From Deltaproteobacteria bacterium (GTDB taxonomy: Bacteria > Bdellovibrionota > Bdellovibrionia > Bdellovibrionales > JAMPXM01), in contig JAFLCB010000020.1 in NCBI GenBank assembly GCA_017302795.1, positions 1 through 36,534 on the forward strand: a DNA stretch of 36,534 nt. Direction: 5' to 3'. A program made the translations under genes and the position numbers. Positions 32,520-35,648 of this stretch are shown here, piece by piece. Position 1 is the first letter of the stretch. Every line of letters begins with the position of its first letter. The notes under the pieces were generated by a model. It saw only the letters and a program-made list of their open reading frames with translations, ran no database searches and was not told the origin of the DNA.

Positions 32520-32945
32520 ATGAAGTTAAGAAAAAATCTTAAGTTTTCAGATCGAAAGATCTTTCTTGAACTAGAGGATATGGAAAATCGAACATTGCAT
32601 TTGGGTTCGACAGATTGGGACTCATTGGTATCTCGGTGGCGAATTAGCATCGAGAGTTACTACAGTTTGATATCAGGCGACGAAAGGACGGCTTCGCTAT
32701 TTCCGGGACGGGCCTATGCAGTTTATGGCGAGGTAGATAGTTTGGGCCGAGTGCTGTTGTTTGTAGTGACACGACAACAAACTACTTTTTGCGCAGAGGA
32801 AATCATTGAAAGCTGTTTAAGGGAATTGAACCCCAGTCTTGCTGAAGAACTCAATCGAGATATTGGAAGTATGTTAAAGATATTGTGTTTTTCTAATTGT
32901 GAGAAGTTGGAAAAACTTAATAATTTGGAAAAGGCATCGTCGTGA
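32520..32945 (+). CDS. Hypothetical protein heading the 32.5-35.2 kb cluster
   Basis: The 141-residue soluble product has no signal peptide or recognisable family. The middle (GRAYAVYGEVDSLGRVLLFVV) is strand-like, and the ends are helical and charged. The next gene begins at GTGA overlapping its stop by 4 bases, so it is the first gene of a coupled set. The codons look more AT-rich than in the flanking genes, hinting at separate ancestry. Function unknown. Confidence 0.6.
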   Translation: MKLRKNLKFSDRKIFLELEDMENRTLHLGSTDWDSLVSRWRISIESYYSLISGDERTASLFPGRAYAVYGEVDSLGRVLLFVVTRQQTTFCAEEIIESCLRELNPSLAEELNRDIGSMLKILCFSNCEKLEKLNNLEKASS

Positions 32946-33214
32946 CCGGATTTGGGAAAAATGCGTTAAATCGAGCGACGGCTGAGCAACTAGAGGGAAA
33001 CCTATTTCGGACCGCACGCCTCCAGTTGAGTCAAACGACATTGGAGCTTGCTCAGCTGGCGGGTGTAGATCATGAAACTGTTCTGAAAGTTGAATCAGAG
33101 CCACACCTCGTCTCTCTTCATGAGATCTGTGCTGTGGCTAACTGCCTAAATCTTGATCCTGGTTGTGTGCTTGAATATCTGCACATATTGGCTCTTTGTG
33201 GTGACCAAGTATGA
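32942..33214 (+). CDS. XRE-like helix-turn-helix protein
   Basis: The 90-residue product has a Cro/CI-type HTH at about residues 28-75: LSQTTLELAQLAGVDHETVLKVES then LHEICAVANCLNLD. It probably binds DNA, or may be a small regulatory partner. GTG start overlaps the previous stop (GTGA) and its own stop overlaps the next start (ATGA), so three genes are translationally linked. Confidence 0.75.
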   Translation: MTGFGKNALNRATAEQLEGNLFRTARLQLSQTTLELAQLAGVDHETVLKVESEPHLVSLHEICAVANCLNLDPGCVLEYLHILALCGDQV

Positions 33215-33849
33215 ACGAGAGCAAACGAGTCGTTTACTTGTTAGTGGCCGATCCAAGTAACTCTAGTCCTGCAGAACGTTCAATTTTATCAAAAGTGGCA
33301 GACTTGTCCGTTCTGCCAATCAAAGCTCAATCAGAAAGCTCAGAGAAAATTGATAAGACCATCGATGGCGGAGTTCTAATTATTCCTCCAGGGTTGTGGC
33401 CTGCCGGCACTCTTGCGCAATTGACCCATTTTTCAGATCTGCCATTTATCGCAATTGTCGAGGAGGGTTGTTCATTAAGTTTGGCAAAATTTTGGTATTC
33501 CCTAGGAGCTGACCTTGTTCTTGATTTAGCTACTTCAAGTGCAGTCTTGGTTTCGGCTGTCGAGCGACGAAGAGAACTTGATCGACGATCGACTCTCTCT
33601 CAGCTTACAAAAAAAGAAATTGTTTTATTTGAAATACTTCGGCGTGCTGGAGCTAACGGTCTGACCCGAAGGCAGTTGGCCGAGAGAGTTTGGCCTGATG
33701 TCCATGTTCATGACAAAACGATCGACGTTCATGTATTCAATCTTCGCAGAAAACTAAACGGTTCATTCTACCGAATTGAAGTTCAGAATTCGATGCTTCG
33801 GTTAATTGATAAATCAGTGACTAATATGCCGGGCGACCTAGGTCGGTAA
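33211..33849 (+). CDS. Winged-helix regulator with degenerate receiver-like N-terminus
   Basis: The 212-residue product has an OmpR-type winged helix at about residues 128-200 (LTKKEIVLFEILRRAGANGL, TIDVHVFNLRRKL). The N-terminal part (1-115) has receiver-like strands (GGVLIIPPGLW, LPFIAIVEE, GADLVLDL) but no clear phosphorylatable Asp with acidic pocket, so it is probably phosphorylation-independent or ligand-responsive. No sensor kinase gene is nearby. It likely controls this cluster. ATG overlaps the HTH gene stop (ATGA). Confidence 0.78.
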   Translation: MNESKRVVYLLVADPSNSSPAERSILSKVADLSVLPIKAQSESSEKIDKTIDGGVLIIPPGLWPAGTLAQLTHFSDLPFIAIVEEGCSLSLAKFWYSLGADLVLDLATSSAVLVSAVERRRELDRRSTLSQLTKKEIVLFEILRRAGANGLTRRQLAERVWPDVHVHDKTIDVHVFNLRRKLNGSFYRIEVQNSMLRLIDKSVTNMPGDLGR

Positions 33850-33897
33850 AGGAAACTTAACTCAAGCGCAAGTCCGTTTTGGTCCGATATCGCGCTC

Positions 33898-34602
33898 ATG
33901 CAGTTAAACTATTTCGATTTACAGGAACTAGACGGACTATCTAGCGATAGTCTTAGAACAATCGAATCGGTCTTTGATTTGTGGCAAGAGGTTTACAGGC
34001 CGATTCTTGCGGCAGCGAATGAGGAACTTCATCCTGATGCATTTTTTCGAGCAAGATATTTGCTTTGCATCTGCGATTCTGACCAGCCTCTTGCATTTTG
34101 TCTAATGAATTCGATCGACTTAAAGTTGGCACACAATGCGGGTCGCTCTTATTTTGGCCCTGTTCCGGCTTCGCGAATGAACGAGTTCTTAGTCTCTAAA
34201 GACAAGATATTGTCGGTTGAATGGGTGACTGTTCGCCCAGCGAGCCGTGTTCAATTCAAGAAAATTCAAATGGCCGACTTGGTAATGGGAGCCGCATTTC
34301 GATTTCTTCATCAAACCGATCATACTTTGGCCATGGGGTATTCTCGAACCGACGTTGGCGCAGATAGGATAGCGGCGCTGTTCGGCGTTAGGCCATTTGA
34401 AGAAACTCAGCTTCACGGAATCAATTGCCGTTTAATGATTGGCCGCCGCGAGTGGGTCGGAAAGCATCGTTTTTCTGTTGTTGAATCGGCAATCGAGTCG
34501 TTGTGGCGCTCGGCCCACAATTTCACAATGATTAAGTTTAAAATGGATGCTGATACTCAATTGATGGAGGCTGGTTTTGAAAACACTCGACGCTCTGCAT
34601 AG
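33898..34602 (+). CDS. GNAT-fold / N-acyl-amino-acid-synthase-like protein
   Basis: The 234-residue product has an ILSVEWVTVRPASR segment (GNAT-like strand and basic loop) followed by the helix VQFKKIQMADLVMGAAFRFL, and DTHTLA-like HTLAMGYSRTDVGADRIAALFGVRPF. This order fits autoinducer-synthase/FeeM-like acyltransferases that couple an acyl chain to a small amine. The similarity is at fold level and acyl substrate is not readable. No obvious Shine-Dalgarno at ATG 33898, 48 bases after the regulator. The oxidase gene starts inside its end (26-base overlap), implying a joint product. Confidence 0.5.
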   Translation: MQLNYFDLQELDGLSSDSLRTIESVFDLWQEVYRPILAAANEELHPDAFFRARYLLCICDSDQPLAFCLMNSIDLKLAHNAGRSYFGPVPASRMNEFLVSKDKILSVEWVTVRPASRVQFKKIQMADLVMGAAFRFLHQTDHTLAMGYSRTDVGADRIAALFGVRPFEETQLHGINCRLMIGRREWVGKHRFSVVESAIESLWRSAHNFTMIKFKMDADTQLMEAGFENTRRSA

Positions 34603-35212
34603 TGCAGTAAATGGGATGGTAGCAGATGTGGAACGATTAGATTTTTCTAATCAGGCTACTTACGCTCTTTGGTTGTCTCAGGCCTATCATTTCGTGCGAC
34701 ACTCCACGCCATTGCTGGCTCTCAGTTGTGGCCGCGCAGTGTCCAACAGAAGTTACCATTTGCGCTGCATCGGTCACTTGGCCGAGGAAAAAGGACACGA
34801 TCGACTATTGCTGAACGATCTAAAGCAACTTGGTTATTCAATTCATGACTGCCCAGAGTTCGCGTCGACGTCAGCGTTCTATCAGTCTCAATATTTTTGG
34901 ATCGAGCATGTTAATCCAGTTTCTTTTTTGGGATACATTTATGTGTTGGAGGCATTAGCAGTGCTTCAGGGGAAAGTAAAAATCAGTCAGGTGCAAGCTT
35001 TCGGAGCAGATTCGTTTTTGAAAATCCATGCTGACGAGGATTCCGCGCACCTAGAACAAGCGGCAAAACTCATTTCAACACTTACAGAGTCAGATCAGTT
35101 ACAAATCATTAAAAACGCCCAACAGGCCAGTGCGCTCTATCAATTGATTGTAAGGGACATCGCTGCTTCCGCAGCTAATTGGATCAAAGACCGTGATGCT
35201 TTAGTTGCGTGA
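34577..35212 (+). CDS. Haem-oxygenase-fold diiron oxidase-like protein
   Basis: The 211-residue helical protein of the iron-containing redox enzyme (TenA/PqqC/UndA-like) superfamily. Candidate metal ligands: E70/E71 and H74 in HLAEEKGHD, E125 in YVLEALA, and H151, D155, H158 in HADEDSAH. The H-x3-D-x2-H pattern matches haem-oxygenase-like diiron oxygenases such as CADD. TTG start chosen because GGAGG lies 6 bases before it. It overlaps the acyltransferase-like gene by 26 bases. Such enzymes oxidise fatty acyl or amino acid groups (alkene, nitro or decarboxylated products). The substrate here is unknown. Confidence 0.7.
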   Translation: MKTLDALHSAVNGMVADVERLDFSNQATYALWLSQAYHFVRHSTPLLALSCGRAVSNRSYHLRCIGHLAEEKGHDRLLLNDLKQLGYSIHDCPEFASTSAFYQSQYFWIEHVNPVSFLGYIYVLEALAVLQGKVKISQVQAFGADSFLKIHADEDSAHLEQAAKLISTLTESDQLQIIKNAQQASALYQLIVRDIAASAANWIKDRDALVA

Positions 35213-35648
35213 TCGCGACAAATGCTTTCGGCCTTCCAGTTAGGTCGAAGGCAATTCCAGTCGCCTTTACTCGAATCATGATTTTCACTTTTTTCGCAGA
35301 AGTTTCTTCAACGATGTGCCAGTCTGTTACGTCACGAACAAATGACTTTCCCAAAGACATCGCTTCAATTGCGCGAACAATTTTAAGTTTCTGTTCTTCT
35401 TCTCGCTTGAATAAAACCGCCCAGTCAGTTTCAGCTAGCTGCTGAAAAGCATAGGATGAAGCCTTCATAAAACCTTGGCTGCAGCCAATAAAGCGCATGT
35501 CCGTTGACCAAATTTCGAATTCATCCTCAGTGGTCAAGTTCAATAGAAACTCGGAATCTGTCTTCAGGCCCAAGCGGTTCATGTAACGTCGAAACTGGTC
35601 CCTTGAGCTGATTTTATTGTCGACGGTCCTTTGCGGCGGAGTATACAT
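35184..35648 (-). CDS. Hypothetical protein
   Basis: The 154-residue soluble product has no signal peptide. The N-terminal half is helical with an EDEFEIWSTDMRFIGCSQGF strand stretch that is faintly PAS-like; the C-terminus is beta-rich (KKVKIMIRVKATGIAFDLTG). I do not recognise it. It overlaps the convergent oxidase gene by 29 bases and diverges from the peroxiredoxin. Confidence 0.55.
   Translation of the reverse strand: MYTPPQRTVDNKISSRDQFRRYMNRLGLKTDSEFLLNLTTEDEFEIWSTDMRFIGCSQGFMKASSYAFQQLAETDWAVLFKREEEQKLKIVRAIEAMSLGKSFVRDVTDWHIVEETSAKKVKIMIRVKATGIAFDLTGRPKAFVAITQLKHHGL

Follow-up and report, generated by a model that had tools for sequence, protein, structure and literature searches.

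The described systems closest to the locus considered here are, on the one hand, the LuxI-type synthases (RpaI, BjaI, LasI, EsaI) and FeeM, an N-acyl amino acid synthase, all of which join the acyl group of an acyl thioester to an amine, and, on the other hand, the haem-oxygenase-like diiron oxidases of the family PF14518. The locus lies in a stretch of 36,534 nucleotides, hereafter the window, corresponding to positions 1-36,534 of the forward strand of contig JAFLCB010000020.1 from a Deltaproteobacteria bacterium (GCA_017302795.1), where a GNAT acyltransferase gene overlaps a haem-oxygenase-like oxidase gene. These two genes form the conserved core across the Bdellovibrionota, accompanied by PAS/XRE or histidine kinase partners. 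The reading we prefer, whose chances we put at about even, is that of a Bdellovibrionota module for the synthesis and sensing of an acyl, fatty-acid-like signal, equipped with short-lived enzymes, for which we infer the chemistry, the signalling and the degradation alike.

Among loci fetched because they carry the pair or the GNAT gene, related ones being counted as independent unless clustered, GNAT and oxidase genes are direct neighbours in 101, across the order and the phylum. As many as 97 of these pairs are encoded on the same strand and 86 have the GNAT gene first, with a median gap of 0 bases, half of the pairs overlapping and 98/101 lying within 50 bases. The two genes are fused in two genomes (L066, L170). 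The co-occurrence of acyltransferase and oxidase in other genomes, on which an earlier reading of the window from its letters alone (the sequence-only reading) depended, is borne out in about 100 loci. The GNAT family itself is present in 106 of 291 genomes of the phylum, or 97 of the 223 good ones, with a GNAT identity of about 20%. Carriers include Bdellovibrio bacteriovorus strain kdesi (NZ_CP102930.1) and Bdellovibrio sp. HM001, on whose plasmid the genes carry hypothetical-protein annotations, and one genome (G019) encodes three diverged pairs. A scan of genome contigs with a single Bdellovibrio oxidase as query gave no match, and with the oxidase alignment it gave 15 loci of the Bdellovibrionota type plus one alphaproteobacterial locus. 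In the window, the members of the conserved unit are as follows.

33898-34602, + strand: gene 4, GNAT acyltransferase of probable LuxI/FeeM-type fold, 234 amino acids, after a 48-base gap from gene 3; flexible C-terminus ending in TRRSA
34577-34602, + strand: overlap of 26 bases between the GNAT and oxidase genes, read from the sequence
34577-35212, + strand: gene 5, predicted haem-oxygenase-like diiron oxidase, 211 amino acids, TTG start, C-terminus DALVA
35184-35648, - strand: gene 6, putative PAS-domain protein, 154 amino acids, convergent with the oxidase gene with a 29-base overlap, beyond the extent given in the sequence-only reading

The 26-base overlap makes translational coupling of the acyltransferase and the oxidase probable. 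Domains were called on the window proteins with Pfam and NCBIfam profiles at their family cut-offs, and gene 4 matches none of these families. Its AlphaFold model (predicted local distance difference test, pLDDT, of 91.8) displays a GNAT fold nearest to the acyl-homoserine-lactone synthases, with Z scores against PDB entries of 16.5 for RpaI (195 residues, 3.0 Å), 15.4 for BjaI, 14.8 for FeeM and 14.0 for LasI, which bears out the GNAT/FeeM/LuxI-like assignment of the sequence-only reading at the level of the fold. The GNAT fold is certain for this model, but its place in the acyl-signal synthase subgroup (LuxI/FeeM) is likely rather than proven, because many other GNATs also score Z 13-15 against it. 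With LuxI-type synthases, gene 4 has in common this fold along the greater part of the chain (Z 14-16.5), a similar size and an adjoining sensor or regulator, whereas it differs by the lack of PF00765, an identity of about 10%, the lack of a LuxR partner and its pairing with an oxidase; FeeM is alike in fold but its family, PF21926, is not matched. Membership of the LuxI, FeeM or T_hemolysin families by sequence was discarded for want of any family match or profile alignment, and a profile search of PDB sequences yielded no credible match for either the GNAT or the PAS family. Going by the fold, the first step of the proposed pathway would be the joining by this GNAT of the acyl group of an acyl thioester to an amine.

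Gene 5 belongs to PF14518 (Haem_oxygenas_2; E 7e-14, 52.5 bits against a cut-off of 28.9) and, in an alignment of 36 relatives, E71, H74, E125 and H151-x3-D155-x2-H158 are invariant, in agreement with the haem-oxygenase fold and H-x3-D-x2-H ligands noticed in the sequence-only reading. The best solved match is PDB 3dde (E 1.8e-20), with which the six ligand residues align in a sequence alignment only. The window enzyme shares with the haem-oxygenase-like diiron oxidases (UndA, CADD, MboA, 3dde) both the Pfam family and the metal ligand set, but its subfamily is distinct, being nearest to 3dde and far from UndA and CADD by score, with a constant GNAT partner and a C-terminal tail. Gene 5 is thus predicted to be a haem-oxygenase-like diiron oxidase catalysing an O2-dependent oxidation. 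Judging from the family and the ligands, the second step would be the oxidation of the acyl product with O2, and the succession already proposed from the sequence, in which an acyl product is made and then oxidised, is plausible.

Such a product could also be a toxin or an antibiotic-type secondary metabolite directed against prey or competitors. An acyltransferase together with a haem-oxygenase-like oxidase is also found in natural-product pathways, and the solved relatives of the oxidase include the mangotoxin biosynthesis protein MboA. However, no resistance, export or scaffold-synthesis genes are seen beside the pair, whose conserved partners are sensors and regulators, and no result obtained points to the toxin role suggested in the sequence-only reading; this alternative is considered improbable.

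In loci without the oxidase, a fatty-acid desaturase, an FAD_binding_4 oxidase or an acyl-coenzyme A (CoA) dehydrogenase usually lies beside the GNAT gene, some loci encode a desaturase and a haem-oxygenase-like oxidase together, and at least one of these four classes of tailoring oxidoreductases is encoded near 115/119 GNATs. In one locus (L169, 2568-4877, - strand), the GNAT is fused to an apparent FAD_binding_4 oxidase in a protein of 770 amino acids without the AA tail described below, and an AMP-binding enzyme is encoded directly ahead of the GNAT in two clusters (L074). Because the class of oxidoreductase changes between loci, the gene content suggests an acyl product whose oxidation varies with the species; the second step would elsewhere be performed by a desaturase, an FAD oxidase or an acyl-CoA dehydrogenase joining or replacing the oxidase.

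Gene 6 brings in the proposed sensing arm. The extent given in the sequence-only reading (32520-35212) omits this member of the conserved unit, and with it were overlooked the PAS partner, the XRE/PAS or histidine kinase arm as a whole, the exchange of tailoring enzymes and the degron-like C-termini. Members of the gene 6 family are found near 87/119 GNAT genes, as a rule transcribed towards the enzyme genes, and frequently share an operon with an XRE regulator gene; the XRE family is encoded near 53/119 GNAT genes and, where an XRE gene neighbours the PAS gene, it lies on the same strand in 35/40 cases. In the AlphaFold model of a full-length relative of gene 6 (pLDDT 95.1), the C-terminal half is a PAS domain, matching PAS/LOV structures with a Foldseek probability of 1.00 and Z scores that remain moderate (up to 7.7). 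No Pfam PAS family is matched above its cut-off, the best E value being 0.0053, with 3/36 members matched, and that of the window protein 0.11 (against PAS_9). In other families of the phylum, a histidine kinase adjoins the GNAT gene, often replacing the PAS protein, and in about half of the kinases counted a rough hydropathy count gives 6-7 hydrophobic segments. Either a PAS protein or a histidine kinase accompanies 113/119 GNATs. From this neighbourhood, the third step would be the sensing of the product by the PAS protein and the XRE regulator or, in the other families, by the neighbouring, often multi-pass histidine kinase.

The same partners can be read otherwise: the product of the pair would be a lipid without a signalling role, for example a modified membrane lipid, an N-acyl amino acid or something akin to a cofactor, and the input to the PAS protein would be oxygen or redox state, so that supply is matched to the O2-dependent oxidase. 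The PAS/LOV-type fold of the gene 6 family and the O2 dependence of the oxidase family would fit such a role, the tailoring enzymes resemble lipid enzymes, and the NCBIfam neighbours of an alphaproteobacterial analogue (see below) are PEP-CTERM-type and OlsB-type acyltransferases. On the other hand, the patchy distribution (97/223 good genomes), the multiple diverged copies and the low identity among the GNATs would be unusual for a housekeeping lipid, and the histidine kinases are often membrane-anchored. We consider this alternative serious but rather unlikely.

The preferred reading of a signalling module draws further on the C-termini of its enzymes. GNATs and oxidases share a short tail whose consensus approximates (K/R)-x-(A/V)-A, roughly (K/R)(K/I)(A/V)A, with the information concentrated in the last four residues, preceded in the GNAT model by a stretch of low confidence. 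The pattern was first noticed in 41 loci, where both enzymes tend to end in AA, and was retested in 60 loci fetched afterwards, where a final A is seen on 38/55 GNATs and 38/55 oxidases, as compared with 19/275 neighbours. When the tail is defined as a terminal A, AS, AV or AG and proteins are clustered at 50% identity, it is found in 74/97 GNAT and 55/70 oxidase clusters (about 77%) against 3/75 PAS clusters (4%), and in 37/583 other neighbours (6%, unclustered). The AA end proper accounts for 33/97 GNAT and 35/70 oxidase clusters, many others ending in VA, SA, AS or AV. In paired enzymes, the tail is present on both in 69 cases, on neither in 11 and discordant in 9 (p 1e-7). Besides, it is present on 13/16 desaturases of these loci against 2/18 desaturases elsewhere in the same genomes, and on both acyl-CoA dehydrogenases of the loci and their two unfused FAD_binding_4 oxidases, whereas of 20 haem-oxygenase-like paralogues away from a GNAT only one ends in A and none in AA. 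These sequence counts show a tail restricted to the enzymes of the pathway.

ClpXP recognises mainly a terminal Ala-Ala, with which related native degrons also end (PMC7652416). Since, in addition, the transfer-messenger RNA (tmRNA) tag of this genome ends in ALAA and ClpX is present, the simplest reading of the tail is that of a putative ClpXP degron. As a fourth step, suggested by the tail itself, ClpXP would recognise the tails of the enzymes and synthesis would halt soon after transcription does, resulting in a pulse. The module tails resemble the ssrA/tmRNA tag (ALAA in this host) and native ClpXP C-degrons by their Ala-Ala or Val-Ala-type end, but differ in being gene-encoded, basic at positions -3/-4 and common to unrelated enzymes of one pathway. 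The main competitor, for this fourth step only, is a docking peptide gathering the enzymes on a scaffold, a membrane site or a compartment, for which speak its specificity for co-acting enzymes, its spread over unrelated folds and its often basic residues at -3/-4. No conserved scaffold gene is seen in the loci, however, and the terminal dipeptide is the very element that ClpXP reads best (PMC7652416) and the end of the host tmRNA tag; docking is judged rather unlikely.

Upstream of the pair, the window holds three further genes on the same strand.

32520-32945, + strand: gene 1, protein with no function assigned, 141 amino acids, first gene of what looks like a local regulatory operon
32942-33214, + strand: gene 2, XRE/HTH_3-like DNA-binding protein, 90 amino acids, GTGA overlap with gene 1
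33211-33849, + strand: gene 3, winged-helix protein of the OmpR type, 212 amino acids, receiver domain degenerate, ATGA overlap with gene 2

All five open reading frames and their junctions are present where the sequence-only reading had placed them, but not as a five-gene unit. Gene 1 has no Pfam or NCBIfam match, and its sole other relative in about 120 loci belongs to a genome of the same genus (G003), adjoining the XRE, winged-helix and PAS genes. Of the proposed helix-turn-helix (HTH) pair, gene 3 has a clear winged helix (C-terminal Trans_reg_C, E 1.5e-10) with, as the alignment confirms, a degenerate receiver part, whereas some relatives (L073, L079) retain the canonical receiver motifs; the HTH of gene 2 is weak, neither HTH_3 (E 0.0023) nor couple_hipB (E 8.5e-6) reaching its cut-off. 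As the G003 relatives of genes 1-3 sit on the PAS side, outside the enzyme operon, these genes look like a local regulatory set, which in the window would control the operon. Their inclusion in the conserved unit was rejected, gene 1 occurring in 2 loci only and relatives of gene 3 near 10/119 GNAT genes. The vicinity of a GNAT and a HipB-like XRE protein could also recall a toxin-antitoxin or phage-defence module with a GNAT toxin and an HTH antitoxin. PADLOC nevertheless gives only weak generic HTH matches and no defence family, the fold is nearest to acyl-signal synthases and the GNAT gene is coupled to the oxidase and not to the XRE gene, which makes this alternative very improbable.

The lower GC content seen in the sequence-only reading is real but slight (44.5-46.6% in the five-gene stretch against 46-52.5% in the rest of the window) and constitutes weak evidence for the acquisition then suggested. 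Recent acquisition was discarded: genomes of the same genus have the pair (in G002, with 54% identity for the oxidase and 50% for the GNAT), which is found phylum-wide.

Several side observations extend the picture. In L074 (G019), two complete module copies adjoin each other, each with GNAT, oxidase, PAS and XRE genes and a gene for about 435 amino acids ahead of the GNAT (AMP-binding in the copy scanned), and a further pair lies on the same contig (L075). Some Bdellovibrio genomes (G039, G037) have a second GNAT that is not flanked by an oxidase gene, and at L100 (5951-6727) an extra GNAT is followed by glutathione-S-transferase-like and subtilisin-like protease genes, as named by eye.

Outside the phylum, the Pseudomonadota have a thermostable-haemolysin operon (PF12261, AMP-binding, PF14518, short-chain dehydrogenase/reductase (SDR) and tetratricopeptide repeat (TPR) genes) that resembles the module in combining an AMP-binding enzyme with an oxidase of PF14518 and in the size of its short first gene, but it comprises five genes, and its listed proteins lack a terminal AA, with only the oxidases A-final. 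Plasmid copies from Vibrio (L268 2919-7070), Citrobacter (L269 2931-7097) and Variovorax (L270 2819-7204) encode the 'thermostable hemolysin' PF12261, an AMP-binding enzyme, a haem-oxygenase-like iron oxidase, an SDR and, as the fifth, a small protein that in Vibrio is a TPR protein; the operon looks biosynthetic and the haemolysin name may be misleading. PF12261 matches neither the window GNAT nor its family (hhalign probability 0.05%). In Hyphomicrobiaceae (L260 4001-5567), a haem-oxygenase-like oxidase lies beside a FeeM-family GNAT (PF21926), with proteins ending in RRRAA and AMAA; this FeeM-family GNAT gives no hhalign alignment with the window GNAT. Two other alphaproteobacterial oxidases also lie beside a FeeM-type GNAT (L262, L263). 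Because neither PF12261 nor the FeeM-type GNAT aligns with the GNAT of the window, the operon and the alphaproteobacterial pair are regarded, from sequence comparison, as analogues and not shown relatives.

A number of points weigh against a signalling module. The lack of a PF00765 match extends from the window GNAT to 35 members and that of PF21926 to the family members, and therefore the substrate of gene 4 cannot be read from its family. The partners are PAS, XRE, OmpR-type and histidine kinase proteins, with no LuxR-type receptor among them, and no dedicated exporter is seen beside the pair, though perhaps none is needed. A PAS domain may respond to light, oxygen or redox rather than to a ligand, and the window gene 6 encodes a short form in which the N-terminal helical part seen in its relatives is mostly missing. 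As for the tail, the window enzymes have weaker variants, RRSA for the GNAT and ALVA for the oxidase, instead of AA, and about a quarter of the loci are without it, so that it is not essential. To these are added the selection and counting of the fetched loci as stated above and the heuristic calling of open reading frames therein.

Many bacteria of the Bdellovibrio phylum are predators. To our knowledge, no self-made cell-to-cell signal has been described in predatory Bdellovibrio, which may or may not coordinate attack, prey exit or host-independent growth. Searches of the literature on Bdellovibrio signal synthases, HM001, Bdellovibrio degrons and cluster mining, with most subscription papers lying outside them, brought up no description of the module. 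It is possible, though on balance doubtful, that the locus represents a not previously described system of chemical communication throughout the phylum, B. bacteriovorus included, in which an acyltransferase with swappable oxidoreductases would make species-specific acyl signals, PAS/XRE proteins or membrane kinases would be the receptors and ssrA-like degrons would pulse synthesis. Separately, a degron-like tail borne by unrelated folds mainly when they share a pathway would provide a rare example of turnover marking extended to an entire biosynthetic pathway, and the tail hints at a means of switching the signal off within the system itself. With short genes hitherto annotated as hypothetical now named in culturable strains, the question of signalling is directly testable.

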